Source: Taeniopygia guttata (Eukaryota; Chordata; Aves; Passeriformes; Estrildidae). From it: a stretch of 64,000 nt of DNA. The DNA lies in contig NC_133050.1 in NCBI RefSeq assembly GCF_048771995.1, positions 1,872,501 to 1,936,500 on the forward strand, written 5' to 3'. The translations under genes and the position numbers were made by a program. Each line of letters opens with the position of its first letter. The first letter of the stretch is position 1. Under the pieces are notes generated by a model. It made no database searches. It worked only from the letters and a program-made list of their open reading frames with translations, and was not told the DNA's origin. Positions 3,001 through 64,000 of this stretch are shown here, piece after piece.

Positions 3001-4215
3001 AAAGAGGTAGAAGATGGAAATGAGACTGTCTCCTGAGAGGAGTAAATTTGTCAATTTAGCAAATTAGAGAGAATATGCTTTCACCTTGGAAGTAGTCAGG
3101 TACCAAAATGATGCCACTTTGAGTAGGCAGGGCTGGGATGGGAATTGCTCCTGTGGGCTTTGACAGATCTATTCACACAAGGGCCCATTTGCTGGTGCCA
3201 GCCCTGGAAGCAGGGCCTGGAGAGACAGCTGGTCAAGGACAATTTCTCTGACTGATTTTACAGCACGTTTGACAGAGCATTCCATTCTCTTTGCACCCTG
3301 TGGATGGTGTCCTGGATGAGCCTGCCCTGCCACACGCTGCCTGTGTGGTGGCACTGAGGTGGCTTTCATGAGGCACCCGGGCCTGCAAGGGCCCTGTGCC
3401 CTCAGCCAAAGCTGTGGCAGGTCAGAGGGAATTTAATGAGTTATTCAGCAGCATCAAAGGCCCTGTGAGAAGTAATTAGTGCTGTGAGATGAAATCAGAG
3501 CATTTAATGCTTTTTGGCAGAGGATCAGGTGCTGCTGCAGAAACTCCCACCCAGAGTGTGGCAGCCCAAGGCCTCAGGGAGAGGGATGAGGCCTGACCCA
3601 GCTTTTTGTCCAAAATCAGCCCAAAACACATTCCCTCCTTATGCAAGTAACTTCATTTTGGTGCCTTCTGCCAGAAACAGGGCAAAAATTGGGAGAGGGG
3701 GAACACCAGCCCTGAAATGCTGAGGAAAAAGAGTTCTGTTCCTCAGGGCTGCTGTGGAGGGGGTCAGAGGCAGCGTGTGCCAACGGGTGAGTCCCTTCTG
3801 CATCTGCTAACGTGCTCCAGATTTTATTTAATTAATTAGCAGCAGGGGGAGAATGTGTAATCAGAGAGTGCTGCTGGAGTAACAGGAAATAAGACGTTCT
3901 CGGGTGCTGGAGCTGCTCTCAGGTGCTCCTGGCTCTGCTCGGCAAGGTGACAGGGCAGTGACTCAGAGGAGGAGCAGGAGCAGCTGCTGGCACCCTGCCT
4001 GCTCAACACTCGGATTTGCTGCTCCCCAGCACGGACCTCAGGTCCCTGCAGCAGCTTTCCATCCAGGAGTGGTGTGCAAAGGGCTGGTGAGCCCCTGGGA
4101 TGTGATGAGCTGAATTTTCCACATCAGCCCTACCTTGCTGTGTTATTTCCTCCCCTAGCGAGAGAATGTGCTGGGATCACTTTCAGGGGGGCTATTAATA
4201 AGTAAAACACTGCAG
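1..4215. other. No gene recognised; left edge of window
   Basis: Only short open frames with no start context, splice pattern or family resemblance are seen on either strand. No CR1 tail, LTR or tandem repeat was recognised here. Probably intergenic or intronic unique sequence. Confidence 0.5.
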
Positions 4216-4497
4216 TGCAGACAATGCACTGCACCTTCCCCTGCTGGTGTCCAGCCTGGATCAGGGCAGGTTGGATGCCACATGGGATCCATCCTTTGCC
4301 ATGCCATGCGATCCTCCATGCAGTAGGGATAACAAGCCCAGCACTGGGGAACCCCAGGTGCTGCAGCAGTGATATTTTTGGGAGAAACACGGAGCTGTGC
4401 ATGGCCAGCTTGAAGTCTGCAGTGGTGTGAGCACCAGGCCTGCCATGCTGAGCCCAGGGCCACAAACAGTGCTCACCATGGCTGGGACACTGAGTCA
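4216..4497. repeat. Duplicated block A, copy 1
   Basis: This stretch reappears nearly base for base at 11335-11616 (constant offset of 7119). Only a few substitutions and a small indel separate the two, such as the tandem GTG in GTGGTGTGAGCACC here against GTGGTGCTCACACC there. In copy 1 it is followed by a CR1 tail. In copy 2 it runs directly into block B. No coding function is seen. Confidence 0.85.
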
Positions 4498-4499
4498 AG

Positions 4500-4786
4500 G
4501 AGCTTTGCAAGAATTGTTTAGCTTGGAAAAGCTCTCAAAGCTCATGGAGTCCAACCATTCCCGCAGCAGTGCCAAGCTCACCACTGAACCATGTCCCCAG
4601 GTGCCACATCCACACTTCCTTTAAATGCCTCCAGAGATGGTTACTCCAGTGCCCTGGGCAGCCTGTGCCACTGCTGGACAGCTCTTTGGTGAGGAAATTT
4701 TCCTAATATCCAATCTGAGCCTCCACTGGTGCAACTTGAGGCTGTTTCCTCTTGTCCTGTTGGTTGTTACCTGGGAGAAGACTCTG
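4500..4786 (-). mobile_element. CR1 LINE 3' tail (antisense)
   Basis: The strand as given reads like the reverse complement of a bird CR1 tail: a GGAGTCCAACC-type segment, then CACCACTGAACCATGTCC, CCTCCAGAGATGG, CCTGGGCAGCCTGTGCC, CCTAATATCCAATCTGAGCC and CAACTTGAGGCTGTTTCCTC. It is 5'-truncated, as usual for CR1, and clearly diverged, so old. It ends against a CA microsatellite. It has no counterpart between blocks A and B in copy 2. Confidence 0.85.
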
Positions 4787-4787
4787 T

Positions 4788-4833
<46 letters not shown>
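4787..4833. repeat. (CA)n microsatellite
   Basis: About 22 uninterrupted CA units directly adjoin the CR1 tail. Open frames crossing it (poly His-Thr or poly Cys-Val) are artefacts. Confidence 0.97.
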
Positions 4834-4836
<3 letters not shown>

Positions 4837-6277
4837 GACAGAGGGACAGATGGGCACAAGGCATGGGAATTCCCTTTGACTCCTCAAGCACAAACCTAGG
4901 GGGATGGTCCTATTTTTTTTGCATAGCAGGTAAAAACTGAAGCAGTGAGCTGTATCCTAACCAGGTAGATGCGGGTAGAAAGATGCTTTGAAAGGGGATA
5001 AAACTTGCTGCCAGGCTTTCCTCCATGAGCAAGTCCAATTTATTTCTCTCTTCCTAATTTTTTTTTTCTTTTGGTTCTGTGTTATTCCTCCGTGGTCAGG
5101 AGGCTGCAGGCATTTAATTTTTTTTTCAAGTTACCTTCTGTACTTCCTGTGGGAGAGAAACCAGTGGCAAGTTCTTTAATTTCTTAGAGTTTCAGGCATG
5201 TGTCATGTAGCTGTGCTGCACCCCGGGGGCCAGGCTCTGCCTCTCCTTGCTCCTGTTGGTGCTGACAAACTGTCCTCTGAGATTTTTTTTTGTAAACTAC
5301 CTCTGACCAGCTTCCACTTTGCTTTAAAAATTCAGCACCACGTTTGTGGCTGAAAAGGTCCCAGGAGCTGGGGAGAAGGATTTGAGATGCAATTTGCATC
5401 ACAGAGTTGTTACAGTGGGGAAAATGTTGCATCCCTCCTGTGTCTGGAGCTGCTAATCTTGTTCTGAACATTGAAAACCTCTCAGCTTCCCTCATTGTAC
5501 CTAAATTTGATTACTGCTTTGATTTCACACCTCTTTCATGCAGGCTTTTCCTCTCTCCTTGGCTGGAATTGTCAGGCCTGAGAAGAGAAATTTTGTTGAG
5601 CCTTGGGACAGTTCCCATCCTCTCTCCCAATGCTGCTTGTAATGATCTTGGGAACCTGAGCATGAGGGAAACTGGGAGGAGTTTAGTGAGAGGCAAAGTA
5701 AGGCACAGAGGTGAAAGTAAAAGTGCAGAGTCTGGGTTACCAGAGTCTGCTGTGTTGTGGGGATCTGGGCCATGCAAAGTCATGTTTTCCTCTGTGAATG
5801 GCCAATTCCTTCTGTATCTCCTGAAATTCCTGTGCACCTGGGCTGGTGCTGGAAGTGCAGCCACACAAAGTCCCCACAGAGCTGTGTGGGACCCCGTGGG
5901 AATCATTTATTTGCTGCTTTTGATGAAAAGCTGTGACAGCTCTCTGCAGGTTGGTGCTAATTAGAGATGTTCTGTCAGGTTCAGATGTTTTGGTGCCCGA
6001 GCAGGGAGTGCAGAACAGGGATGACAAGCGCTGACATTTGCTGTGCAAGAAAGTCCAAGGGACAAACTTGTGCCAATGAACGTCACACCTTTAACTAGGA
6101 GGATCAATTTGTGTTGTGCATGTCCCAGAGTCTGGTGACAGAGGGGGCTTCCAAAGGAAATCTCGGTCCATGTAGGACCGAGGCCCCTGTGCTGAGGCTG
6201 CCTCCAGGCTGGTCCAGCCCCTCAGGGTGCCCAGGAACAGGGGCTGCCCACAGCCCAGTGCACCTCGCTGGCCCTGC
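4834..6277. other. Unannotated spacer inside copy 1
   Basis: No exon or mobile element is recognised with confidence. An open frame at 5407-5964 (185 codons, plus strand) shows no family resemblance, splice framing or start context. The stretch is absent from duplication copy 2. Confidence 0.4.
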
Positions 6278-6690
6278 TGTTAGCGTTCCGGAACACACAT
6301 AATCACAGCATTTGATTATATGCAGGTGCTTTTACTAAGAGCTCTGGGAGTCAGGGGTACAGACCCAAATCTGACTCTGACATGGCTTTCGAGCTGAACG
6401 CATTTTATATTCTATCGTTGTATAATTTACACATTAATTATTCAACATATATTGTTCTATTATATACATTGACATGAGTTTCTCGTGATCTTTCTTAGGG
6501 CCCTGACCACAGTTTCTCATGTTTATTCTTATGATTAAACAGTAATTATATTTAATTACTAAACAATCATCATATCTAAAAATTATATAATTTATCATCT
6601 ACTAGCTACACAGGTGCAGTTCTAGCAAGTACAAGTTCTTCATGTACTTAGGGTACTTATTTTTCCAGGGCCTAATAAGCTTATTTTTCC
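6278..6690 (-). mobile_element. ERV-type LTR, probably solo (antisense)
   Basis: An AT-rich block starts TGTTAGCGTTCC and contains features expected of a reversed passerine ERV LTR. In the minus direction it has an AAGAATAAACATGAG polyadenylation-like site, a long AT-rich U3-like zone, and an end in AACGCTAACA. No adjoining retroviral coding sequence was recognised, so a solo LTR is the simplest reading. Outer boundary and age are uncertain. It lies in the interval missing from duplication copy 2. Confidence 0.55.
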
Positions 6691-7039
6691 TGTTAACCCT
6701 AAATCCCTATGATTTTAAAACCCTTTTACTATCACTGGGGCTATCCAGGCAAGAGCCATGGATGAGGCTGTGCAGGACCACGCAGGCTCAGTCCTGCTCC
6801 AAGATGGTATCCCATGGGACAGGGCACGCTGGGATTTGCCCCTGCAGCTCCCCAGTGTGTCCAGAGAGACTGCAAGGAGACAGTGACCTCTGTCAGTGGG
6901 ACCCCTCTGTGCAGGTACCCCCACTCCTGGGGTGGCTGTGCCAGCTCCCCCATGAACTTCCCGCCCTGGGAACCTGGAGCAAGCGGAAAACACAACTTTG
7001 CCAATGCTGCCTGTGCCTGAAGCAAATGGAAAGAGAGCT

Positions 7040-7917
7040 GGGGTGTGAAAAATCAGGGTTGTTTATTTACAGAAGAACAGCAATGAAAACACAGAGCACA
7101 TTGACTTTTGTAAGAATATTTGTAATAACAACAATTTATTGAACGTATATACCTAAGAACATTTCTAACAACAATATTTGAAACGTATTTACAGAAGACA
7201 AAACGAAGCCCTAAAACCTATATCCTAAAGAGAACAACAAACTCTAAAACTATGTACAAAAGGGTGCCATCTCTGTGCGGGATCTCCATCAGTCCTGGAA
7301 GAAAAGCAGGTGCCATGGTCACTCCAGTCAGGCACAGAGGGCTCTTCCGTGTGTCCCCAGGCTGGCACAGTGGGACCCTGCTGCCAGAGCTGAGGCTGGC
7401 TGGGTCTGGGGGCTGGGCCCCAGGCACTGGGATGGGGCTTGTGTGGCCGGAGCAGGGACCACCCAGCCCAGCCCCAGCCTGGCTGCAGGGAACCCACTCG
7501 TCCTGTGGGGACCACGTACCTGTCCTGCTGCTGGCATCGGTCTTCATCCCAGGACCATGGCCTCCTCTTCATCTTTCTCATCAATTTCCATGTCCTCGGT
7601 GCACTCTTCCATTTCCACGTCCATCTCCTCTTCCACATCCACCTCCATCTCTTCCGCTTCAGTGTGTTCTCCATCCACTTCCATCTTCTCCTCTGTATCA
7701 ATTGGTGTGTCCACCTCCATCTCTTCCTCTCTGTCTGCGACAGCCTGTAGAGGTAGCAAAACCTCAGAGTGGGGTCCCTGTCCCACCCCATCCCCCCAGA
7801 ACTCCAGCCCACCCGGGCAGCTGGGGGGATCCACCTCCATGGAATGGCACCGTACCTTTCTCAGGACAAAGGTGAGCATCCTGCAGGGATGGATGACACA
7901 ATCCAGGCCTTCAGCAG
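7040..7917 (-). CDS. 3' end of an acidic MEVD-rich gene, copy 1
   Basis: Three minus-strand exons are supported. The first, 7917-7856 (62 nt), has acceptor TTTCCATAG and donor AAG/GTACGG. The second, 7744-7520, has acceptor CTCTACAG and donor CAG/GTACGT. The last, 7294 to about 7040, has acceptor TTTTCTTCCAG and an AATAAA signal near 7060. The frame entering in phase 1 reads AEGLDCVIHPCRMLTFVLRK, then AVADREEEMEVDTPIDTEEK and further Glu/Asp/Met-rich motifs (EEMEVDVEEEMDVEMEE), ending MVLG at a TGA at 7546-7544. The last exon is then 3' UTR. Upstream exons were not found, so this could be a gene end, a partial duplicate or a pseudogene fragment. The family is not recognised. The acidic tail suggests a nuclear or chromatin-associated protein only by analogy. 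Confidence 0.5.
7059..7070 (-). terminator. Polyadenylation signal, acidic-tail gene copy 1
   Basis: On the minus strand TGTAAATAAACAACC holds an AATAAA hexamer. It lies in an AT-rich 3' UTR-like stretch about 225 bases past the last acceptor. The same site is conserved in copy 2 near 11876-11887. Confidence 0.6.
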
Positions 7918-10222: not shown

Positions 10223-11334
10223 CTGAACTTGGCCAAAAGAAGAGCTACATTGCTGAGGTGAAGTGAGAAGGGGGATTAGAGCCACCTGTGTTTGCCCTTT
10301 AAATCCCTTCCAACATCAATTCTGGGCTCTGTCTCTGGGTATGGCCACAAAGGAGCCTTTGTTGTTCTTCAGTTGGGCTGAAATCTAAATCTCAGCGAGT
10401 GCAGCTCAGAGGGTGACACGTGCTGCCGCTGGGGCCACTGTGTGGACTTGTTTTCAGAAAAATGGGAGATGCAGAGGAGAGAGAGGTTCCTGGATACAGT
10501 AACTCTACCTACACCTGGAACTGAGGCATCTGCCCAGGGATTTCGTATTCACCGACTGGAAGGAAATCAAATCAGGGCTTGCTAATTTTCATGAAGTCAA
10601 ACACCTGGGATTCACTTCAGACTTGCATTTTCCTGGAAGAATTCAACACAAGCGCTGTATATTTATACACAGGCACTGGACTTTTCTGTTGTTTGATGAG
10701 ACTACAATTTGTCTTCCTCTTGTGGTTCCTGCAATCCTTCCTCTCCTGAGGTTTGCAGTTGAATTACCAACCTCTACCCCAGGAATATTCATCTGTCATA
10801 TTTTGGATATTGTTGTTCCTCAAAGGAAAGCAAACAATGCGATTTGAAGCCAGGCCTCTTCCCAGGAAGATTTGATTGGAACCAAGTCCTGCCTCAAATC
10901 CAATCTCATCTCCATTGTTGTGTATGTCTATTAATTTTCCCATCATTGCTTTTCCATTTCTTATTACTATGCAGCTCAGTCTTGAACACCATCATTCAGA
11001 ACGACACAGAAGTCACATACTGCTGCTTCCCTATTCCTATCTGCTTGTTACCTAATCCCAGCCAGCTCTCTATTGAACATCTGCTTTTACCTGGGCTGAC
11101 AGGTGTGTGTTTTAGCAGAAAATACTGCAAATCAGGGATGCAGAATTTCTCCTTGCTCTGTGAATCTGATCAGGGTCCTTCCAATGTGTCACTGAACATG
11201 TGAATTCTCCCTTTCTCCCAACAACCCCCAGTGCTGGTTTTGGCTAAGATAAATCAGACAGCGCTGTTTGGAGTCACTCCCCACCTGCTTTTCCATCTCA
11301 TGCAGTGGCTGGGGTAGGATGGCTGGTTGGGTTG
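10223..11334. other. Spacer, nothing recognised
   Basis: No exon, RNA gene or repeat could be identified on either strand. The open frame at 10844-11203 lacks any supporting signal. Confidence 0.45.
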
Positions 11335-11616
11335 TGCAGACATTGCACTGCACCTTCCCCTGCTGGTGCCCAGCCTGGATCAGGGCAGGTTGGATGCCAC
11401 ATGGGATCCATCCTTTGCCATGCCATGCGATCCTCCATGCAGTAGGGATAACAAGCCCAGCACTGGGGAACTCCAGGTGCTGCAGCAGTGATATTTTTGG
11501 GAGAAACACGGAGCTGTGCATGGCCAGCTTGAAGTCTGCAGTGGTGCTCACACCAGGCCTGCCATGCTGAGCCCAGGGCCACAAGCAGTGCTCACCCTGG
11601 CTGGGACATTGAGTCC
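11335..11616. repeat. Duplicated block A, copy 2
   Basis: Near-identical to 4216-4497. Unlike copy 1 it continues without interruption into block B. Confidence 0.85.
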
Positions 11617-11628
11617 CAACATGGGATC

Positions 11629-13155
11629 AAACGGGACCGGGCACGCTGGGATTTGCCCCTGCAGCTACCAAGTGTGTCCAGAGAGACTGCAAGGAGACAG
11701 TGACCTCTGTCAGTGGGACCCCTCTGTGCAGGTACCCCCACTCCTGGGGTGGCTGTGCCAGCTCCCCCATGAACTTCCCGCCCTGGGAACCTGGAGCAAG
11801 CGGAAACCGCAACTCTGCCAATGCTGCCTGTGCCTGAAGCAAATGGAAAGAGAACTGGGGTGTGAAAAATCAGGGTTGTTTATTTACAGAAGAACAGCAA
11901 TGAAAACACAGAACACATTGACTTTTGTAAGAATATTTGTAATAACAACAATTTATTGAACGTATATACCTAAGAACATATCTAACAACAATATTTGAAA
12001 CGTATTTACAGAAGACAAAACGAAGCCCTAAAACCTATATCCTAAAGGGAACAACAAACTCTAAAACTATGTACAAAAGGGTGCCATCTCTGTGCGGGAT
12101 CTCCATCAGTCCTGGAAGAAAAGCAGGTGCCATGGTCACGCCAGTCAGGCACAGAGGGCTCTTCCGTGTGTCCCCAGGCTGGCACAGTGGGACCCTGCTG
12201 CCAGAGCTGAGGCTGGCTGGGTCTGGGGGCTGGGCCCCAGGCACTGGGATGGGGCTTGTGTGGCCGGAGCAGGGACCACCCAGCCCAGCCCCAGCCTGGC
12301 TGCAGGGAACCCACTCGTCCTGTGGGGACCACGTACCTGTCCTGCTGCTGGCACCGCTCTTCATCCCAGGACCATGGCCTCCTCTTCATCTTTTTCATCA
12401 ATTTCCATGTCCTCGGTGCACTCTTCCATTTCCACGTCCATCTCCTCTTCCACATCCACCTCCATCTCTTCCTCTCCAGTCTGTTCTCCATCCACTTCCA
12501 TCTTCTCCTCTGTATCAATTGGTGTGTCCACTTCCATCTCTTCCTCTCTGTCTGCGACAGCCTGCAGAGGTAGCAAAACCTCAGAGTGGGGTCCCTGTCC
12601 CACCCCATCCCCCCAGAACTCCAGCCCACCCGGGCAGCTGGGGGGATCCCCCTCCATGGAATGGCACCGTACCTTTCTCAGGACAAAGGTGAGCATCCTG
12701 CAGGGATGGATGACGCAATCCAGGCCTTCGGCAGCTATGGAAACTGATGATGGGGGTATCCGGGGGCAGGAACAAGAAGGGTGGCAGGAGTGGGCAGGAG
12801 CAGCGTGCAGGGTGTGCTGACCCCAGGGCCAACAGTTGTGTTGTGCTGCTTGCTGGCTGCTGGCAGTTCCAGGTGGGACATGGATTGTGACGTGACAGTT
12901 GAGCTAGAGAGCCTTTGGTTCCATGCTTAGCAACGTTCCCCCAGACCATGGTGCTCAGAGCCCTGTTCCCAAGGATGGGGCATCCACAGCCTGGGCCAGT
13001 GCCTCAGCAGCCTCAGTGGGAAAGAGCAGCTTCCTGAGATCCAACCTCAATCAGCCTCCTGCAGCTGAAAGCCATCGCCCCTTGTGCTGTTGCCACAGGC
13101 CCTGTTGAACACTCTGAACACTCTGTCCCAGCCTTTCTTGTGGGACCCTTGCAGT
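11629..13155. repeat. Duplicated block B, copy 2
   Basis: Near-identical to 6812-8338. Its right edge, after GGGACCCTTGCAG, passes into sequence unrelated to the copy 1 flank. Block A lies directly to its left. Confidence 0.92.
11857..12734 (-). CDS. 3' end of an acidic MEVD-rich gene, copy 2
   Basis: The same exon structure as copy 1: 12734-12673, 12561-12337 and 12111 to about 11857, with the same splice sites. The acceptor before the acidic exon reads CTCTGCAG here rather than CTCTACAG. The frame is open in this copy too and differs at a few residues: EQTGEEEMEV here replaces EHTEAEEMEV. The TGA follows MVLG at 12363-12361. Both copies keeping the frame through a strongly biased low-complexity tail is mild evidence for selection or for very recent duplication. 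Upstream exons were not identified and the family is unknown. Confidence 0.48.
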
Positions 13156-22647: not shown

Positions 22648-23181
<534 letters not shown>

Positions 23182-31286: not shown

Positions 31287-31502
<216 letters not shown>

Positions 31503-35229: not shown

Positions 35230-35576
<347 letters not shown>

Positions 35577-49033: not shown

Positions 49034-50709
49034 GGCTCTGACTGATGCTCTCTTTTTTTTTTCCTGATGCCAGCCATAAGCACAGGCTCTCATTTTACAA
49101 GTCATTAGCCACTCCCTGAAATACTTAGCTAGGGAAGAAAAACAGTAAAAGGTAATGATGATGAACAAAGAGGGCAGGTGTAAACAGCTGGCAGTTTTCT
49201 GTTTATGTCACTTTTGTAAACTGAATATAAGGGCAGGTTTCAGCCTGTGGAATAACCTGGCATGTGCAATAACTGACTCTTAAAATATTCTGCTTCCTAA
49301 CTGGAATGTCTGTTTAATCTTGTTAGCAAGATTTAAGTGGATTTGAACAATATGCAGTACCTTGAAAACATACTTGAGGCAAAAAGTTAAATATGCAATG
49401 AGCGGTTACAGGATTTAACTCAAAGCAGGTAGCAGATGGGCACCAGTAATGTGAAATACTCTGTGGGCCAGGTTCTTCTCAGCTTGGCCCAGGTGTGGCA
49501 TCTGCTTAGTAAATTCTTTGAGAGGTGATCTTTTTTGCCACTTGGTTCTTGACTTTTCTGTGAGGTTTCCACTCTTCTCATGTTGGGAAAGCATGGTGCA
49601 GATGTATGTCCCCTGAAAAATTTGACTATGGCTTAATGAGAATTACCGCAGAGACACAGTTACTTTGCTGCTGAAGTTATTTGCGATATTTGGTTGTGTT
49701 TCTTTTTTTTTTTTTCTCTCTTAGAAATCGAGCTGTAATATGGATACTTGATGTTCTACAATAATTTTGTAGTTCACTGTGCTCTGCTTTGTTAAACCAG
49801 TATTATATATTCTTTCTTATTTTCCGAAATAATTAGTAAAGAGGCTGCTCTAAACTTTGCCTTGAGTTCAGAGAACACTGGCATATTCTTAAGTTCTATT
49901 CTCTGTGTTTAAATTTCGGAGGACTCTGTAGATGTTAGTCCTGCTGCACTTTGTGGGCTCATGAATGTGTTGTTTTTTTCAAATGAGGTGACCTGGGTGC
50001 ATTTTTCAAGTACATCAGCAATGGGCTGCTCTGTTCTGCTTTCAAACCTGCCCATTCTCCTTTCTTGCAGCCAAAAACACAAACAAAAACCTAGTAGATG
50101 GGATATTAAGATGTCTTGACTGTTGTTCCATGTTTAAGTGGAACACCCTATTATGTCATTAGGGAAAGATCACATCCTTTCCACATCAAGGAAATAATTC
50201 TACTAATGAGGTGAAATGGGTACAGAGTACTGACTTCCTCTAGAAATCTTTTTCCTTTTCTGAGCTAATGTTGCTATGAGTGAGTGATTAAAGCTGCATT
50301 TAGTCCCGTATTCATGTACTTACACTTAAGGAAGAATTTCTTTTGGTGGCCTGCTAAGAAGCATGAAAAGATGAGTTAGAACTAGAACACTTTGTGCATT
50401 TTCCTTATCATTCTGTATGACTTGGGCCCGTGGCTCAGAGTTAATATCCTGTCTGTGCTTGTCAGACATCATTCACTGATCCTGCAGTGCTGGGCCCTTG
50501 TCCTCTGCCTTGGCCAGGGGTGCAGAACAGAGCAGCCCTGAGGATGCCCTTCCCTGTGCTGACTGACTGAGGCCTCTGGATCTTGGGGGCATCTCATCCC
50601 TCAGCCTGTGCTCTGAGCTTTGGTTGCCTGCTTTAAACATCCTCCCTGCACACACAGGACTCTGGCAGTGTTGTGCCTCTTTCTGTAACTGCTAACATTG
50701 TTCTTGCAG

Positions 50710-50814
50710 CACGAGGCTGTGCTCCCAGGGCCTGCCACCATTGAAGTGATGCTTGTGGAAGATGTGAAAGTGAGCCCCACTGGGCTCTCCATCTACAACC
50801 ACCCTGACATCCAG
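50710..50814 (+). pseudogene. NUP210: NUP210 exon 18
   Basis: HEAVLPGPATIEVMLVEDVK, VSPTGLSIYNHPDIQ. Acceptor CTTGCAG, donor CAG/GTGAGG, phase 0. Confidence 0.95.
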
Positions 50815-50941
50815 GTGAGGAGTTACTCTGCTGCTTTCCAGCTGCAGGGAGGAAAACATCACACATTACAGGGGGTGTGTGAGGAGACAGCTTTACTGGA
50901 AAGATACAATCTTAATGCAGGATGCTTTTCTGGTTTTGCAG

Positions 50942-51043
50942 GCAGAACTTCTCCTCCAACAAGGTTCTGGATATTTTTTCATTAATACCAGTGTGCCAAA
51001 TATTGTAAGAGTGACACATGAAGAGACTCAAGGCATTGCTTTG
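50942..51043 (+). pseudogene. NUP210: NUP210 exon 19
   Basis: AELLLQQGSGYFFINTSVPN, IVRVTHEETQGIAL, phase 0. Donor TTG/GTGAGT. Confidence 0.95.
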
Positions 51044-53890
<2,847 letters not shown>

Positions 53891-54495
53891 TAGGAGCTGA
53901 TCCAGCCTGCCCTGACTCCTGTGCTGCTGGTCCTGAGCACAGAGATCACACATGGACAAGATGCTACAACAGAGAACACTTCCCTGTGTCTCTGTTTCTC
54001 CCTCCCAAATTTATCCCTTCAGGTTATAAGGGTCTCAGGGTATCAGGTATCTGTTCGTGTTCTGTGTGGCAGAAATCTCAGCTTTTGCATTTACATAGTA
54101 ATATTAATCCCTAATTTATATGGACATGCTCATTTACATTTCCTCCTGTTTAAAGTGCATGTGAGCAATTCTTTTAGGAGTAGGTTTTGCCCCAGGGTCA
54201 TTTTCCATATGTCAGGCTTTAAAACTGAACAGAAGAAAGTCCAGCTCATTGCTCTTGCCAGCTTGGGTGCACCTTAAACAAAAGAAGTGTTGATATTTCT
54301 GGATGTTTTAATTATGCCCTTGCCAGCTGAAGGACCTGAGTTCATTCATTTCATCTGACACTAACTCCAGCTGGCAGGGATTAGTGTTTAAAATCAGTGC
54401 TAGTCTAACCTTGGGGCTCTAACTCCACTAGCCTACTACAAGTATAATACAAAATCAAGTGAAAATTTTTATGCGAATAAATAAGAGTGGTGTGA

Positions 54496-54654
<159 letters not shown>

Positions 54655-55119
54655 TAAGTTAATGGACTTTTGAAATTAATCTGTGAATAAGAATTGGCAA
54701 AAAATGAATAAAGATATTAGGTTAAAGGCATGGTAATACACAACGGCTGAGAGTCTTTTTATTTTCTTTTTGTGAAGCCTCAATTAGCTGTTAAAAGGTA
54801 AAATATTATTTGTGAGGGAAGTTTCCTGAGCTAACAGCCTGAATGTTGCTGGCTGATGAAGGAGACTGCATTCCTCCAGTGTGATGACTGATGAAGCTTT
54901 GTGCATCTTGGAAGCAGTGACTTGGCAGAGAGTGTCAGGTGAAGAGTGCTGTGTGAAGGCACATCTGATGTTATCAAACTCACTGTGTCTGTTGCTTGTT
55001 TCATTTTCACTTCAAGTATTTAATGTTTCAATAAAGCACAGTTTGCAAAGAGCAATCATGTGTAAAAATGTGATAATTTCCTCAACTTTGCTTCAGACTG
55101 TCACTTAGCCTTGTGGTAA

Positions 55120-55356
<237 letters not shown>

Positions 55357-55617
55357 TAAGATACAGGCATAAAGAAAGTCTGTGCTACAATGGAACAGGA
55401 ATACATACATTATGGTTACAGTATAGTAATCAATTTGCCATAAAATTCATTCTGTCTGGAAGCTGACCTAATGCCAGTCAGATTTCAGTGTTGTTTAACT
55501 CAGATGAGTTAAATTTCGTCATGCTCAATTTACTGTGATTAAGCAACTAAAGAATCAGTTGTACACTTGTACTGTTTTGTGGTGTCATTTATCTGACTGA
55601 AGGATTTCTGTTTTTAG

Positions 55618-55680
55618 GTCTTTACCCCATTTAGACTACTGCCAAGGAAAGTGACCCTAATTATTTGGGCCATAATTCAG
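55618..55680 (+). pseudogene. NUP210: NUP210 exon 23, donor lost
   Basis: VFTPFRLLPRKVTLII then WAIIQ, where relatives have GATMQ. After CAG the expected donor GTGAGG reads ATGAGG, so splicing to a next exon would fail. No later NUP210 exon is present in the remaining 8.3 kb. This is the last recognisable piece, about 120 bases before a CR1 fragment. Confidence 0.9.
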
Positions 55681-55796
55681 ATGAGGCATCGTCTTACATA
55701 TTTTCTTTACTTTGTAATTTCTGTTGTAAAATGAATCTTCATAACTGGATTTTCAGCAGGAAATACTCAACTTGACATTTATCTGCATTCACACTG

Positions 55797-55990
55797 AATG
55801 GACTGACAGGCTTGTTGGAGAGGGGCTTTGGGCAAGGGCCTGGAGTGACAGGACACCAGGAGTGGTTTCAACCCAACGCAGGGCAGGGCCACATGGGATA
55901 TTGGGCACGAATTGTTCCCTGTGAGCGGGGGGAGGCCCTGGCACAGGATGCCCAGAGCAGCTGTGGACGGGTCTGAGATCCTCTGCAATT
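55797..55990 (+). mobile_element. CR1 LINE 3' tail at the NUP210 breakpoint
   Basis: Sense fragment: GGGCCTGGAGTGACAGGACA, GGTTTCAACCCAACGCAGGG, TTGTTCCCTGTGAGCGGGG, CCCAGAGCAGCTGTGGAC. It lies exactly between the end of recognisable NUP210 sequence and the first repeat unit of the cassette gene. Confidence 0.82.
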
Positions 55991-56177
55991 TCCCAGTCTC
56001 TGAGCAGATCAGGAGGCGCAGCTGTTTTCACAAGGGAGTGCTCTGGCCCAGCCCCAATAGCCTGGGCATTCTCCTCATCTTTACCTGTGAGTTTCACAAG
56101 CATTGCCTCCTGAAGATCACACCTGTCCAATGGGGAATGTTTCCATCTGATGCAGCTGTTCCTCTTCCTTTTTCAAG

Positions 56178-56297
56178 TAATTGACCAAACGCCTGTGCAG
56201 AAACAGGCACTTCCTGGAGGAGGCAGCGGGTCAGTGCCAGCCTCTGCTGCAGGAAGGAAGGCGATGCCAAGCACGGACACAGGCATGGGCACAGGAG
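56178..56297 (+). CDS. Cassette gene exon 1 (Q/K-GS type, copy 1)
   Basis: IDQTPVQKQALPGGGSGSVP, ASAAGRKAMPSTDTGMGTGG, 120 nt. Acceptor TTTTTCAAG, donor GGAG/GTGATT, phase 1-1. Near-identical to exon 8 and related to exon 5. Confidence 0.65.
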
Positions 56298-59200
56298 GTG
56301 ATTGCTGTGCCGGGCTCAGCCCTCGGCGGGGCTGTGTGGCAGCAGCTCTTCCCCCAGGCCCTGCCCTTGCACGGCCCAGCAGCAGCCAAAGCTGGAGGTG
56401 CCTCGGCTTCCAGGCCTCTGGAGCTCGTTCACAGCCCCGGGGAATCGGGACTCGTGCACCAACAATGTCCCTCCCTCTGCAGCTGCTCCCGCAGCCGGCC
56501 CTGAGTGCCCAGAGGCTCCAGGCACAGGAGCAGCCCCGAGCGGGAGCCCTGCTGTGAGCCCAGGGCCAGAGCCAGCCCTGGCACACAATGGAAACCTTCT
56601 CATCTGGGTTTGCTTCTAGATGGGGATGCCCCAAAGGCTTCTCCATTAGCCTGGCGGTATGACGCTTTGAAGCCCTCTGGGCATCCTGCAGGTATGTTCT
56701 CAGTGTCTCATAATCATTGACCATCTGGAAGGAACCAGGTGACAGAAGCTCCTGTGCCTGTTCAGTTACAGGCGTTTCTGCAGAGAGGATCTCTCCAGCT
56801 CCTGGGCTGGATGATGCACACCAACCCAGCTCCCATCACAGGGGTGAGTAGTGTGTCCCTGCTGAACCCACAGGCTGAGCAATGGTTTTGTGGGGTCCAT
56901 TCCTGGGAAATGGAACAGCTTTCTGTTAAGATCCTCCAATAGGAAACACCAACCAGATGGTAGACAAGAAATCCCAGAAACCATTTGAAGTCATGTGGAA
57001 AATGCTGAAGGAAATGGAACAGGCAGGACAAGGTGGGTGCATTTCCCTCAGCCTTCCCCTGGGACTCAGCAGCCGGGGCCTTTCCCTGCACATCTGGACA
57101 GGCCCTGCCCGGCACAGCGGGAAGGGATCCATGGCAGCCTCACTGCCCTGCTGCTGCTCTCCTGGCCTGCAGGGCTGTTTCCCAGCCTGGGCTGGCTGCA
57201 GCTTCTCCCCAGCTTCTGCAGGAAGGCATTTGGCACCAGCTGACACGGACCCCAAGCTGCACCATGGGCCATGCACACCCTGAAATCCCCTGAAGTTTCC
57301 CTGTCTCTGAGCACATCAGGAGGCACAGCTGTTTGCAAGGGAGCGCTACTCACTCGGGCATGCTCTGGCCCAGTCCCAACAGCTTGTGCCTTTTCCTGAT
57401 CCATATCAATGACTTTGACAAGCATTGCCTCCTGAAGATGCGCCCTCCCCTAAGGGATACAGCCTCACCTGCTCCAGCTGTGCCTTTCCCTTTCTTCCAA
57501 AGTAGATGGAGAAGCTGTGCTGAAGGCAGTGTTTCCCAGAGGAAGCAGAGATTCTGTGCCAGCCTCTGCTGCAGGAAGGGAGGCGATGCCAGGCACAGTC
57601 ACAGGAGGTAATTGCTGTGCCTCTGGGCCTGAGCCCTGCTGAGCCTTGAGCTGCCCTCTCTGCTGCTTGGCAGCGTGGGCACAGCCCGGACAAGGCCGGC
57701 ACAGCCCAGAGGAATTATTATGCCCGGGGCACTCCGGTACTGAGCAGTCCTGCTGGGGTCCCTCTGTGGGAGACACGTCCCGAGCTCTGGAAGTGACTGC
57801 ACGGGGTGCCCATGGTGGGGAAAGGGCAGAGGGGGAGAGCAAGGCTCCAGAGTGTCCTGAGAGGGCCTGGCTATGTGCCATTGGGCTGAGGGATTTGTCC
57901 CAGCAGTAAGAGGGCAGGAGGGACAGGGGGAGGCAGGGATACCTGTGGAACTGCCTGCTGCAGTTTTCCCCTGGGCTTTAGGGAGGGTTTCCTCTGTGGG
58001 AAGAAGAGAACCCCCAGGGCCCCAGGCTGCTCCAGCTGCCCATCCATGGATGTTGCCAGGGCCTGCAAAGAGCATGGACAGTGACCAGGAGCAAGCCCTG
58101 AGCTCCCCAGGCCCTGTGCTCCTTTGGCCTTTTCCATTCACATCTGGATCCCAAGGCCTTACCCAACCCCCTTGCAAGTACTCAGATCCTAAAGGCAGAA
58201 GGGGACCACAGCACACCAAGGAAATGGTTCTGATCTGTGCTCACTTCTAGATTTGGATGGCGACTTGGATTATTATGAAGCCGTGGTGGAAAATGGCTTG
58301 AAGTTCTTGGAGGATGTTGGAGGCAAGTTTTCAATATGCCTTTCCTGAGACAAAAATCAGAGTCAGTGTGACAAGAGCTCACCCATCTTCCACTTCCCTT
58401 AACATCATCCCAGGGTTGAAGGAATCTGGAAGCCTCGCCCTGCTCCCTTTCTGGAGCCCTGAGTGATCCCACAGGATCACTGTCAGTGGGAGGAAGGAGC
58501 ATTTAGCTGTCAGTTTTATTCCTGTGTGCAATGCCAGAGTGTCCTTCCGTGTGCTCTGTGCAGCCCCAGAGAAGAGCAGAGAGGGAAGGGGCCGGGCCCA
58601 GAGCTGTGTCCTGGGGCTGAGCCTTGGGTGCAGCCTGAGGATCTCCTACATTGTCACAGGAGCTGTTCTGTCCTGCCTTTCTTTGCAGATAACCCTGCTG
58701 GTGAAAGTGATCTGGCTTCCCAACCCACGTTCAGGATGGAGGCTCTGGGAGATGCTGAGGGTAGGTCAAGGCCTTTCCCCCTGCGAGAGCTGCCAGCTCA
58801 GAGCCCAAAGCTCGGCCAGGGGGGCATCGCTGCAGGTGCCAGGACAGAACCATGCACAGGTGTGCCCTCGCCCTGGGTCATCCCCTTATGACTTCTGCCC
58901 AGGCTTGGCAGGTGCTTGAAGGAGGGAGGGCCATGGCCCAGTCCCAAAACCCAGATGTTTTTCTGGTCCTTAACCATGATTTGAATAGCATTGCCTCCTG
59001 AAGATGCCACCTCCCTCAATGGCGGATGGTTCCATCTGATCCAGCTGTCTCTTTTCCTTTCTCAAGAAATGGACCAAACATCTCTGCAGAAGGAGGCACA
59101 TCCCGGAGGAAGCAGTGGCTCAGTGCCAACCTCTGCTGCAGGAAGGAAGGCGATGCCAGGCACGGGCACAGGCACAGGAGGTGATTGCTGTGCCGGGCTC

Positions 59201-61015
59201 AGCCCTCGGCGGGGCTGTGTGGCAGCAGCTCTTCCCCCAGGCCCTGCCCTTGCACGGCCCAGCAGCAGCCAAAGCTGGAGGTGCCTGGGCTTCCAGGCCT
59301 CTGGAGCTCGTTCACAGCCCCGGGGGAATCGGGACTCGTGCACCAACAATGTCCCTCCCTCTGCAGCTGCTCCCGCAGCCGGCCCTGAGTGCCCAGAGGC
59401 CCCAGGCACAGGAGCAGCCCCGAGCGGGAGCCCTGCTGTGAGCCCAGGGCCAGAGCCAGCCCTGGCTCCCGACTGGGCAGGGGCTGCACTGGGTCCTGAC
59501 AGGGCCTGGCTCTGTCCCCTGGGGCTGGGGGAGCTGTCGCGGGGCAGGGAGGGCCAGGGCTGGCAGGGGCTGCTCAGGGATGGGTTTGGTCCCTGTCCCT
59601 CCAAGCAGAGACGGCCCAAGCAGCTGTGCTGGCCCCGGGCTCTCCTGCCGGCCTGCTGGGCTTTGTTGGGTGGCACAGCCTGTGCCAAGGGGTGGCAAGG
59701 TGCCTGCAGGCCCCAGCTCTGGGGCAAACAGAGCACGTCCTGGCCGCATCCACCGTGCTGCCAGCTCAGCAGTGCAGCACAGCGCGGGCTCACGCTCCCC
59801 ATTGCTCCCACAGATGCTGCCGGCCCCACAACACCTGTTCCCGATGCCCAGAACAGCCTCAGAAGTGGTTGCTATTGGGAAACACACTGTTTGATACAGT
59901 TAATTGCAGGTCTGCTTTTTTTGGAGCTTTCCTTCATGTTCACCTGTGTTGGAATCTGGTGTTACTGCAAGAGAAAACGGTGAGTGTTTTCATCATCTTT
60001 CCCTCAAACAGTTTATTTTAAAAGTCTAATGTAGATGGGAAACATTTCCAGTCAGGCTGCAGTGGAGCTGTGGCCAGTCCATGGCTGTCCAAAGAACTCG
60101 GCTGAAGGTTCTGCTGTGCCCAGTGCTTTCCTTGGCCCCTTCATTGCTGGGCCTTGTCCTGGGGCCCGCTGGGGCTGCAGCCAGTGCTGGTCCCACTGAG
60201 GCTGCCTGGCCACGAGCAGCCCCAGGGGCACAGGGCAGAGGCACAGCAAGGTGGGGAGGAGAAAGAGCGGGGACGAGATCGCCCCTGAAAGGCAGAGGCG
60301 CTCTGGGGCCCGCTCCTGGCCAGGGAGCCTGCCCAGAGCCGTCCCCTGCTCGCCGGGGCCTTGAGGGGCAGCTGTCCAGCTGGGCCAAGGTGTGCCAGCC
60401 GCTCCAGCCGTGCTGGGGAGCCCTGCCAGCTCTGGGCCTGCTGTGCAGGAGGCTCCCTGTGTGCCACTGGCAGCTGGGGCCTCAGCCACTCCTCTCTCCA
60501 CAGCAGCGCCTCTGCAGCTTCACAAGACCAGATGACTTCAGCATGCAGATCTGTTCCTGTCATCAGCCTTCCCCAAGCCAGTTTCCAACATGCCTTCCAC
60601 AGCTGCATTACCCACTTACTGCTGGGGACATGCTGCCACCACCCATAACAGAACCCTCTGTCACCAAAGGTGCTGGCCCTGGTGTCCAGCCAGGACAGGA
60701 GGTACAGCCCTCCTGCCAGGGTAGGGCCTGACTCCAGCAGCATCTTTGGGCTTCAGCTCTGGTCCCTGGGTGCTCCCACCAGCACTGGCGGAGCTGCTTG
60801 TCTGGGCACAGCCAGTGCTGGGCAGGCAGCAGCTGGGCTTCGGGCACCTGAGACCAGCAGCTACTGTGTTTAGTTTTCATTTTGCAGGATTTAGGAATAT
60901 TTTTCATAGAAAATTCTCCAAATATTTAGTCCCTTTTCCCACAACAGTTCTATATTTTTCAAAGTAGTTTTAGTATTCAGAAAAACTTAGAATATTTTCA
61001 CACTTTTAGAATAAA
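56178..61015 (+). CDS. Cassette-exon membrane protein gene (novel, 5' end unknown)
   Basis: Ten plus-strand exons join without a stop: 56178-56297, 56620-56691, 56766-56843, 56943-57032, 57503-57607, 58251-58322, 58689-58760, 59067-59180, 59814-59979 and 60504-60648. The first eight are exact multiples of three between phase-1 introns. The ninth encodes a transmembrane segment and the tenth ends in TAA, giving about 344 residues. The predicted outer part is Ser/Gly/Ala/Pro-rich with short charged stretches. LIQLIAGLLFLELSFMFTCV spans the membrane, followed by a basic Cys-rich YCKRKR stop and a 47-residue tail. No start codon or signal peptide was found upstream, so earlier exons or promoter lie in unrecognised sequence or were lost. 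I do not recognise the family; function unknown. Confidence 0.62.
56620..56691 (+). CDS. Cassette gene exon 2
   Basis: DGDAPKASPLAWRYDALKPS then GHPA, 72 nt, phase 1-1. Acceptor TTGCTTCTAG, donor GCAG/GTATGT. Confidence 0.6.
56766..56843 (+). CDS. Cassette gene exon 3
   Basis: TGVSAERISPAPGLDDAHQP then SSHHR, 78 nt, phase 1-1. Acceptor CTGTTCAG, donor AGGG/GTGAGT. Confidence 0.58.
56943..57032 (+). CDS. Cassette gene exon 4 (charged helix-like)
   Basis: GNTNQMVDKKSQKPFEVMWK then MLKEMEQAGQ, 90 nt, phase 1-1. Acceptor CTCCAATAG, donor CAAG/GTGGGT. The Met/Lys/Glu-rich stretch looks helical, unlike the Gly/Ser-rich copies. Confidence 0.6.
57503..57607 (+). CDS. Cassette gene exon 5 (Q/K-GS type, copy 2)
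   Basis: VDGEAVLKAVFPRGSRDSVP, ASAAGREAMPGTVTG, 105 nt, phase 1-1. Acceptor TCTTCCAAAG, donor GGAG/GTAATT. It is the most diverged of the three related cassettes and its first residues differ in chemistry. Confidence 0.62.
58251..58322 (+). CDS. Cassette gene exon 6 (acidic), GC donor
   Basis: DLDGDLDYYEAVVENGLKFL then EDVG, 72 nt, phase 1-1. Acceptor CACTTCTAG. The donor is GGAG/GCAAGT, a strong GC-type site. Acidic and probably helical. Confidence 0.6.
58689..58760 (+). CDS. Cassette gene exon 7
   Basis: DNPAGESDLASQPTFRMEAL then GDAE, 72 nt, phase 1-1. Acceptor CTTTGCAG, donor GAGG/GTAGGT. Confidence 0.6.
59067..59180 (+). CDS. Cassette gene exon 8 (Q/K-GS type, copy 3)
   Basis: EMDQTSLQKEAHPGGSSGSV, PTSAAGRKAMPGTGTGTG, 114 nt, phase 1-1. 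Acceptor TTTCTCAAG, donor GGAG/GTGATT. It differs from exon 1 mainly in the number of short GGCACA units and in the first ten residues. Confidence 0.65.
59814..59979 (+). CDS. Cassette gene exon 9, transmembrane
   Basis: DAAGPTTPVPDAQNSLRSGC, then HCLIQLIAGLLFLELSFMFT and CVGIWCYCKRKR: about 22 hydrophobic residues followed by a basic cytoplasmic anchor. The Cys residues at the membrane edge suggest palmitoylation (inference). Acceptor TGCTCCCACAG, donor CG/GTGAGT, phase 1 in and 2 out. Confidence 0.7.
60504..60648 (+). CDS. Cassette gene exon 10, C-terminal tail
   Basis: Enters in phase 2 and reads SASAASQDQMTSACRSVPVI, SLPQASFQHAFHSCITHLLL, GTCCHHP, then TAA. Acceptor CTCTCCACAG. The phase closes exactly with exon 9 (total coding length a multiple of three). 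Another frame is also open here, so the tail sequence is less certain than the exon. Confidence 0.5.
61010..61015 (+). terminator. Polyadenylation signal, cassette gene
   Basis: AATAAA in TTAGAATAAAAATATAAAAT, 362 bases after the stop codon, where the GC-rich gene passes into an AT-rich stretch from about 60880. Confidence 0.5.
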
Positions 61016-62030
61016 AATATAAAATGCATTGAATTGCTAGTCTATGCTCTACTAAAAACTAAGTCACTCTATGACTCACAGCCTGCTTCAGAGGCTCTTT
61101 TCCCACAGGAGACTTGTGCCTAATCACAACAACTAACCTAAAACCTTTTCCCTGATGTTTTCTGGGATTCCTGACAAGCTCACCTCTCAGTCTTCAGAGG
61201 CAAACCTTGAGCACAGCAGGAATCTTTTCAAGTCACCATCTTTGTTTGCTTCTGCACAAAGTGCCTCAGTCATAGAGCAGGGGCTTTGCTCAGCTTCCTG
61301 CCGCCCTGCTCCCCCCAAGGCTGTCCTGAGCCCTCTGCTGCAGCTGCTGCGCTGCCATGGAGCTGCTGTAAAACACAACAGCTCTGCCACACGTGCTCAG
61401 CAGGACTGGAGAAGCTTTCTGGCCTTGCTTACATTAGGCTGGTGGCTTCTCTAAACACAAGCTGAGCTTTTGAACGCTATGTCTCACCTGGCACAGGAAC
61501 TGATGCTGCCTTTCTCATGGAGGCTAAACTCCCATGGGCTTTAAAAGTTTTCTGGCCAGCATAAGGCCTGGAAAACCATTTAATGCAGCCATTTAGTATT
61601 GAAAATGGCCCAGTCTATGTATCAAAGTAGCTTGTTTAAATGCTGGAGCCCACCAGAGCATCCCTCCAGGGCATATCTTTCTCTCCCCCACCTCTGCCTC
61701 CATGACTGCCAAACTGCACCTTTGAGAGTTCTCTTCTCCAGAAGCTGAATGGTACCTTTTTATTTGGGGGAGGAAAAAAAAAAAGGAAATGTTCTATGCT
61801 ACTATCATCATCATCACAATAATGAGCTGCAAATTAGTTAAATGACATCAACAACTCAGACTGTGGACTTAGTTCTCAGAGTGCAGCACTGGCTTTACTA
61901 TCCCTTGAAACTGCAGATGTGCTACAGTCTTTAAAATCCGTTTTCATGCTTACCTAATTTGGAGTCAAGCACAGCTCTGTGAGAGCTTTAGGGGTTGGGC
62001 CTACCCTGGCACTCTCGAGGTGTCTGGAGT
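61016..62030. other. Spacer, nothing recognised
   Basis: Intergenic-looking sequence with no exon or repeat recognised except an A-run near 61775. The short open frames are unsupported. Confidence 0.45.
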
Positions 62031-62460
62031 GACCTGCCCAAGCCATCTGCCACCCGAAGAGCAAAGCAGGGTATGGACAAGCACAGGCTGCAGAACAGCT
62101 CGAACTGCAGGGAGCCCATTCCTGTCAGGAGTAACACGACCATCCCACCTTAGGACTGGGTTTTGTGAGAAACAACTGCACACTTTAAAAGTTTTAAAAC
62201 GTTTATTAGACATTTACAAAGACATAAGAGAAGGACTCATAAGGAAGAACAGGCCTGGGAAGACCCCCTGCCCCATGGCTGCTACCTGCCAGGTGGCTGC
62301 CTCATCTTCAAGATTGATGCTTCACCTTTTACATTCCTGGAGGGTGCATCAGCCACCCCTGGGCCCTCCCAAAGTCTGTCAGTCAACCCTTCTTTGCCGT
62401 TTATTGGTGGAATTTATTTCTTGTAGCTGCATTTGAAGGTCAGGTGTTGTCACGCCGCGT
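62031..62460 (-). mobile_element. LTR-like stretch (antisense)
   Basis: On the minus strand there is a U3-like region, then GTCTAATAAACG as a polyadenylation-like site, and TTTCTCACAAAACCCAGTCC beyond it, the order expected in an LTR. No clean TG...CA ends or target duplication were found, so the family and the limits are uncertain. Confidence 0.35.
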
Positions 62461-62523
62461 CCCCCCAGCAACAAGCTTTTCCATTCCTACTCTCCCATGC
62501 AAGGGGTATATGTCGATACCTAT

Positions 62524-62914
62524 TGTGGTGGACCCCCACTGCAGGGAATGACGTGCATTGACTCCATGTTTGCAGAAGGATGAATAAAAGCTTTATTAAG
62601 CTGTCCTATATTACACTATACTAAAAACTATATTACTGCTATACTGAAGAGAAACCCGTGACCCTTAGAGACAGTCCAACACAGAGTGGCTCCAGTTGGT
62701 CAAATGAAATCAAAACACCATCACCAGAGTCCAATGAAGAAATCCCTCTTTGGTAAACAATCTCCATAACACATTCCACATGTGCCAAACATCAGATGCA
62801 GCAAATGGAGATAATTGTTTTTCTTCTTTCTCTGAGCTTTCTCACAGCCTTCCCCAGGATGTTCCTGGGAAGGCCTGTGTCTCTCACTGTTCAAAGGATA
62901 TGTGAATACCACAC
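62524..62914 (-). mobile_element. ERVK-like passerine LTR (antisense)
   Basis: Read on the minus strand it starts TGTGGTATTCACATATCC and runs through CAGAGAAAGAAGAAAAAC and TTGTTTACCAAAGAGGG. It then has GCTTAATAAAGCTTTTATTC (polyadenylation site) and ends GGTCCACCACA. This is the layout of a single LTR. No matching second LTR or retroviral gene is seen in the window, so a solo LTR is likeliest; limits are approximate. Confidence 0.6.
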
Positions 62915-64000
62915 ACGCCTTCTTTCTACCTGTCTAGACAGCCCAGGCTGTCTGGTGGGAACAATAGGGAGTGGGGGGTCAGATGTATGATTATCATTTA
63001 CTCCAATGAAATATTGTTGTATTGAATCAAGGCAAATATGATTTGGCATGTATAATATTTAGTTTTTACACAATACACATACCAGCACTGTAAGCTGCCC
63101 CCCCACACACACACATATTTGTTTACACCAGAGCCAGGTTTTTTTGGACAATGCCTCATTTACAATTAATACATGTGGCTAGTCTGGAGATGGGCTGTCC
63201 CAAAAGGAGATACTGGAACACCTGGGAGCTGATCATCCCGGTAGCGACTCAAGATTGGGATCGCTGGAGTCCTCCGGGCTGATGCATCTGAATGCCACGG
63301 TTCCCATAACCTCATCAGGAAAAATTGTCCACACCTGGACCTGGATTGTTCAACCCCGGCTCAGAGAAAAGAACTTTATGAATATGTGGGACTCTGAATG
63401 GAAAGAAAAGGCAGGTGACTGAAATCCTGGCCTCGGGCAGAAAATTTCCTATAAGAACTGCAGGGTCTGGGAGGGTGGTGTGTGTGTCCAGGGGAACCTC
63501 TGCCGAGAGGCTCCTTCCTGTCACGCACCCAGTGCCGAACCTGGGCTCAGCGCTGTCCTTTTCCTTTTGGCCTGCTCAGAGAGAATTCAATCCTGAATAA
63601 CTTTTTATTGTTTCATTTTAAATTTGGCTGGACTAATTTTCATTTATAAAAGGGGGAAGGGGACTGTGGGGAGAACGGAGAACATCTAAACAACAAATCA
63701 CAATAACATAACTCTACATCAAAGAAGCTTCTCTTAAGATACACACAATATTCATCCCTTAATTGCAAGAGCCAATCATCTCATATTCTATCTATTACAG
63801 TTTGGATGGAGACCAGAAGTAATACCTTGCAAAAGGAAAAGAGGGTACAAAGGTCCCTGCAGTCCCCTGGCCTGGTACCTCAGCCAGTGGGGAAAGGAAG
63901 AGGGCAGCATGTGGCCAGGAGTTTAAATAGAGGCTGTGTCCTCCAAAACTTTGAGAGAGAAAAGCCCAGCAGCAGATGTCCCCATGGACTCTCTCCCTTT
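62915..64000. other. Repeat-derived right edge
   Basis: Contains a CA-rich patch near 63102 and a stretch at about 63400-63680. The latter resembles LTR/R-region DNA: a TATAAGAACTGCAGGG promoter-like site, TCCTGAATAACTTTTTATTG, and a purine-rich AAAAGGGGGAAGGGGA tract. This suggests a further LTR-retroelement fossil running off the window. No gene is recognised. Confidence 0.35.

Follow-up and report, generated by a model that had tools for sequence, protein, structure and literature searches.

Symmetric mini-exons of a putative orphan membrane-protein gene, copied repeatedly beside a truncated NUP210 pseudogene in Taeniopygia guttata

A 64,000-nt stretch of the Taeniopygia guttata genome (C27:1872501-1936500, in an assembly of 1.14 Gb and 41 contigs; hereafter the window) was found to carry ten small exons, E1-E10, adjoining the cut end of a duplicated NUP210 on the same strand. 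We lean towards the reading that these exons are the 3' part of an as yet unnamed gene whose product would be a single-pass membrane protein, probably of type I judging from its layout. This part would have been spread by segmental duplication and would now be largely decaying. The parent gene would have had phase-1 mini-exons for a stalk, a single transmembrane exon and a cytoplasmic tail that is short and starts with basic residues. A rearrangement would have fused its 3' part, at 55693/55694, to the NUP210 piece, and the composite block would then have been copied many times along the 8.2-Mb contig C27 and, more rarely, onto at least eight others. Repeats comprising E1, E5, E8 and intron sequence would have eased unequal crossing-over and gene conversion, with in-frame exon blocks being lost, gained and swapped and the copies on one contig largely homogenized. 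We infer this order of events, and the part played by gene conversion, from comparison of the copies. Most of them, including the one in the window, are likely to be passengers without a start of their own, and a full-length parent may lie elsewhere in the genome.

The first-pass annotation had described eight consecutive exons bounded by phase-1 introns with good splice sites, followed by a transmembrane exon and a terminal exon. Most of this structure was recovered. The eight phase 1-1 mini-exons lie on the forward strand at 56178-56297 (E1, 120 nt), 56620-56691 (E2, 72 nt), 56772-56843 (E3, 72 nt), 56943-57032 (E4, 90 nt), 57506-57607 (E5, 102 nt), 58251-58322 (E6, 72 nt, acidic), 58689-58760 (E7, 72 nt) and 59067-59180 (E8, 114 nt), and the transmembrane exon E9 follows at 59814-59979 (166 nt). 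E6 needs a correction: the GT reading of this exon fails and a GC-AG intron is required, with the GC donor kept in all 25 fetched copies that hold the exon. E9 encodes a 19-residue segment with a Kyte-Doolittle mean of 2.16, followed by basic residues (CYCKRKR). This single hydrophobic segment with basic residues next to it is the layout of a predicted type I protein.

To gauge the chain against its surroundings, open, non-overlapping, symmetric phase-1 exons of 72-120 nt with GT donors only were counted at fixed splice-score cut-offs. The mini-exon region gave six such exons in a row. Elsewhere in the window, 53 stretches of 3.9 kb, taken from both strands, were scored in the same way: 25 gave none, 23 gave one and five gave two. 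The antisense strand of the mini-exon region itself gave none, and a check for an unrelated known gene on that strand, suggested at the outset, turned up nothing. One of 300 first-order Markov shuffles reached a chain of six. E1, E5 and E8 (E5 belonging to the D3 repeat family) are mutual duplicates and so do not count as independent exons; it is with this qualification that the original claim of more than chance agreement stands. The absence of a recognizable family was also borne out: the exon set, searched from E1 onwards, matched nothing in Pfam up to E=10 and no PDB chain up to E=1, and positions 50000-64000 of the window matched nothing in Rfam.

The case for a coding origin comes from comparing 30 copies, the window included. 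Across E1-E9, 225 of the 233 readable exon cells have an open, unshifted frame, and all but two of 460 splice dinucleotides (458) remain intact, although neither count is one of independent observations because the copies are related. All nine exons are present and open in 17 of the 30 copies. The eight broken cells are E1 of L022, E4 of L033 and L037 and E7 of L013 and L033, all frameshifts, together with E8 of L021 and E9 of L028 and L036. Thus, with the window counted, E1 is open in 25 of the 26 copies that hold it, E2 and E3 each in 26 of 26, and E4 in 24 of 26. Strongly diverged variants, including one of E6 found on other contigs, keep this integrity. Between E9 of L032 and its counterpart in the window, 55 of 165 aligned nucleotides (33%) differ; the variant has no indel or stop and is still hydrophobic (2.26). 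E6 of L028 differs at 23 of 72 nucleotides with length and frame kept and again no indel or stop. Distinct indels in the introns number 71 per 608 variable sites, two being multiples of three. For E1-E9 over all copies the figures are 12 per 192, including three indels of 6 nt, against about 22 expected at the intron rate. In the E9 and E6 variants taken together about nine indels would be expected and none was seen (Poisson P ~1e-4 by our own arithmetic). The preservation of length and frame in exon variants with as much as 33% difference argues that the ancestor of the mini-exon set was translated. On these sequence grounds we regard the exons as real and as coming from an orphan membrane-protein gene that matches no curated domain.

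The terminal exon had been read as closing the frame exactly on a TAA, and comparison of copies overturned this reading. E10 as read in the window (60504-60648) is 145 nt long, a single base shorter than in 18 of the 22 fetched copies holding it; these 18 have 146 nt, three others have 149 nt and L030 has 148 nt. A longer tail frame, ending near 60731, is common to 21 of the 22 and amounts to 75 aa in the five copies read to the stop (L015, L021, L026, L032 and L036). The shifted frame produced by the 1-base deletion ends the window copy, and a shifted frame separately ends L030. Closure on a stop is in any case weak evidence for an exon, since open frames soon hit stops.

Immediately upstream lies a 3'-truncated NUP210 pseudogene (23057-55683, forward strand). 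A PDB search identified the joined translation of 54526-55690 as human NUP210 residues 989-1093, and tblastn with a human NUP210 sequence gave 24 colinear stretches covering residues 23-1098 at 23080-55683 of the window. The neighbor is thus a duplicated 5' part of the gene: residues after about 1098, including NUP210's own membrane anchor, were found neither in the window nor in the fetched sequences L001-L039, and the NUP210 probe did not match anywhere in the mini-exon region. No intact NUP210 reading frame was found upstream of the mini-exons in the window. Two NUP210 exons contain in-frame stops, near 35253 and 44981, and the first ATG of the pseudogene does not lie in the NUP210 frame. 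Scored by eye against NUP210, exon c (53741-53868) is frameshifted in the window and in 14 of 15 fetched C27 copies; the window also has a stop there, as do 13 of the 15, and L021 is without either lesion. The last NUP210 exon, f, has lost its donor, which reads AT in place of GT both in the window and in each of these 15 copies; elsewhere it is GT in L031, L035 and L037 and GC in L034. The NUP210 part at 50.7-55.7 kb is common to 15 of the 19 fetched C27 copies, and in these 15 the variable sites number 22 of 671 in NUP210 exons and 91 of 4322 in the rest, so that no constraint is seen. On contig C1 the copy consists of NUP210 exon 1, a gap in which window positions 24485-51561 are absent, and exons c-f, of which exon c, matching in two frames, is also broken, but without the C27 lesion. 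A gag-like CCHC zinc knuckle, likely an endogenous-retrovirus remnant, was noticed by eye just 5' of a NUP210 exon 1 copy in L040 (C1:40578380-40584379, minus strand). In the window, a GC-rich simple repeat with proline-alanine-serine-rich frames (22650-23050) lies directly upstream of NUP210 exon 1. A literature search on NUP210, NUP210L and nuclear pore membrane glycoprotein in birds returned only PMC7955980, which is unrelated.

The composite arrangement recurs across the genome. A 223-nt probe consisting of E1 and part of its next intron was used to search for copies; 40 places were scored among 161 candidates, with matches about 2.9 kb apart merged into one locus. At least 33 loci with the E1 block were found, at least 32 of them outside the window. 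C27 has at least 20, between 1.02 and 4.95 Mb, of which at least 19 are additional to the window; C8 has at least three, C30, C32 and C10 at least two each, and C35, C26, C36 and C1 at least one each. We fetched 29 of the 32 other loci, the remaining three being C8:381936, C32:3392946 and C10:27392364. All share a left edge at 55693/55694, where two arrangements part at the same base: a NUP210 exon lies to the left in the window and 19 fetched copies, with an identical junction on C1, C8, C10, C26 and C27, and an unrelated flank lies there in the other 10 (L011, L015, L025, L026, L028, L029, L030, L032, L033 and L036). For L029-L037 this assignment rests on about 0.1 kb left of the breakpoint.

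A signal-peptide exon had been anticipated upstream of 56178. None was convincing by eye in 55694-56178, where a weak phase-1 candidate (55997-56086) lies within an intron repeat, nor did a convincing start exon appear in 5 kb of the unrelated flank in L011 and L028 or in about 15 kb more on C30, which included L038 and L039. A 10-codon start in L011 and L028, MLIQLFLLVA, has a phase-2 donor. A 111-nt phase-1 exon in L038 was considered as the missing 5' exon and dropped, as it recurs 5' of exons in L039 (C30:6072801-6080800, minus strand) that we take to be PHF7-like. The start-like exons of L039 belong to this same set, which lies upstream of the unrelated flank type and gave only sub-threshold PHD and RING matches in Pfam. 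The set lies inside a 4.07-kb inverted repeat that L039 forms with L038, the two arms being 99.3% alike. Also considered as a missing 5' exon was a symmetric phase-1 stretch of 87 nt at 467-553 of L038 (C30:6064900-6072900, minus strand), 12 kb upstream of a C30 copy, which looks like an exon and scores well at its splice sites.

That symmetric exons can be gained and lost in frame, as the first-pass annotation proposed, is seen directly among the copies. E1 with its next intron (block 1, 56099-56582) and E8 with its next intron (block 2, 58987-59466) form an internal direct repeat, block 1 being 89-93% identical to block 2 of other copies. L015, L021 and L026 are without 56582-58987, and L013 and L024 carry an additional block (L013 also jumps to 61214). 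These losses and gains fit what crossing-over between the two blocks would produce, and because all the mini-exons are phase 1-1 they keep the frame. Copies on C27 also resemble one another irrespective of flank. Mean divergence between the two arrangements on C27 is 1.99% at 55700-57300 and 0.97% at 59200-60290, compared with 3.47% and 2.30% for NUP210-flanked copies on C27 versus C8. C27 copies are thus closer across flanks than to same-flank copies elsewhere, which points to homogenization. In trees of the unit, C27 copies with different flanks intermix, with mostly low support, and in a second tree L025 groups with C30 and C36 copies. Exon variants are common to several contigs.

Tests for selection gave little sign of it. 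With a transition weight of 4 (our choice), the expected fractions of changes are 0.684 non-synonymous, 0.284 synonymous and 0.032 stop. The window and 12 NUP210-flanked C27 copies (n = 13) show 22 non-synonymous and 9 synonymous changes and one in a split codon; over all copies there are 140 non-synonymous, 55 synonymous and 6 split-codon changes, and 4 that count as stops if each is set alone into the window codon. Both ratios are close to the neutral expectation, and the excess of non-synonymous change that was looked for in the two sets was not found. Variable sites in a set made up of the window and 14 C27 copies number 36 of 880 in exons and 149 of 3910 in introns, and both exon indels are frameshifting. 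Among the mini-exons, E7 has the fewest variable sites, 4 of 72. The divergence of E5 from the window significantly exceeds that of its flanking introns in L030 (p = 0.0002), L031, L033 and L035, and the same holds for E6 in L030 (p = 0.0026), L031 and L035, the test having been applied to 4 of 29 copies and nine exons in each, with p uncorrected. The E5 excess was dropped as a sign of positive selection: E5 borders an intron stretch (57319-57508) that cannot be aligned in the E5-diverged copies, N:S is near neutral, and block exchange or a recombination tract explains the divergence as well. For E6 there is no comparable structural reason, and diversifying selection could have acted at E5 and E6. 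The divergence between E1 and E8, near-duplicates whose 3' introns are 98-99% alike, was likewise discarded as evidence of selection, since the near-identical introns look like a conversion tract.

These data bear on whether the copies still work. The first-pass annotation saw in the window the hallmarks of a fast-evolving reproductive or immune surface protein, and a corresponding alternative to decay is a living multicopy family of surface proteins with cassette exons under diversifying selection, whose start lies further upstream and whose broken copies are normal turnover. The 225 open cells of 233, the loss and gain of exon blocks, the variants common across contigs, and the divergence of E5 and E6 beyond their introns in L030, L031 and L035 (E5 only in L033) are what such a family would show, but N:S is near neutral within C27 and over all copies, the fast-changing E5 adjoins the non-aligning stretch, two unrelated upstream flanks are without a convincing start exon in the scanned parts, and the window tail is frameshifted. 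We consider a living family possible but unlikely. The window copy, with no start found, a shifted tail, a truncated pseudogene upstream and an N:S of 22:9, is more plausibly a relic left by copying than a functional surface protein. Against the relic reading, 17 of 30 copies with E1-E9 open and only 8 of 233 broken cells leave room for function, exon indels are fewer than the intron rate predicts, splice sites are somewhat better kept than introns, and a start exon could lie far upstream, the scans having reached only the near flanks of most copies. It is very improbable, at the other extreme, that the exons are a chance pattern in GC-rich duplicated non-coding DNA; E1, E5 and E8 do count as fewer than three independent exons and one shuffle in 300 did equal the chain, but chance would hardly preserve frame and length in strongly diverged variants, nearly every splice dinucleotide, and transmembrane character through a 33% nucleotide difference.

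A further alternative is that NUP210 and the mini-exons form one chimeric gene, broken-NUP210 exons being spliced to the mini-exons and membrane anchor through a cryptic donor in exon c. The two parts are adjacent on the same strand with the same junction on five contigs (C1, C8, C10, C26 and C27), and the changes that make the exon c stop also create a GTAAGT donor (phase 1, score 3.2) at 53852. Exon c to this donor (53741-53852, forward strand), joined to E1 and E2, is an open frame. The donor is kept in 12 of the 15 fetched C27 copies with exon c; it is changed in L010, L020 and L021 and absent from the other copies. A second phase-1 donor, at 31467, is natural and strong. On the other side, the natural donors read for NUP210 exons 1, a, b and d-f are in phase 2 or 0, and in phase 0 E1 begins with TAA; a transcript would need to skip exons d-f, both stops (near 35253 and 44981) are in frame, the first ATG lies outside the frame, and inspection by eye showed no hydrophobic leader. 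Such a chimera is improbable. A bolder reading, which we hold to be distinctly doubtful, combines these elements: an orphan membrane-protein family with dozens of copies, mostly on one small contig, would have its stalk re-assorted in frame by block recombination, each copy displaying a different set of symmetric cassettes, and the window copy may have borrowed its 5' part from decayed NUP210 via the new splice site.

Avian BG and butyrophilin genes are multicopy surface families with small symmetric exons, and the present unit resembles them in its short symmetric exons, many copies and unequal crossing-over. It differs from them in that its mini-exons are phase 1 and 72-120 nt long, no start was found, and the exons from E1 onwards show no Ig or B30.2 domain at the Pfam and PDB thresholds given above. 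Segmental duplication blocks carrying fused pseudogenes are also a known kind. Like them, the composite block is large, about 99% alike on one contig, present on other contigs too, and subject to internal deletions between repeats; unlike them, a single composite junction recurs here along one 8.2-Mb contig. Under the favored reading of a decaying gene piece, the window would represent an orphan gene, with exons of coding origin and no curated domain, spread in a composite block with a decayed NUP210. If an active full-length parent exists, its symmetric cassette exons and recombination-prone repeats would allow a direct test of whether unequal crossing-over diversifies the stalk. If there is no such parent, the lesson is one of caution, as perfect-looking exon chains in amplified regions can be start-less gene pieces. 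Direct repeats also occur far from the mini-exons: two pairs at 4215-7098 and 11334-11915 of the window are each 96% identical, one with units of 300 nt at a distance of 4.8 kb and the other with units of 282 nt at a distance of 7.1 kb.
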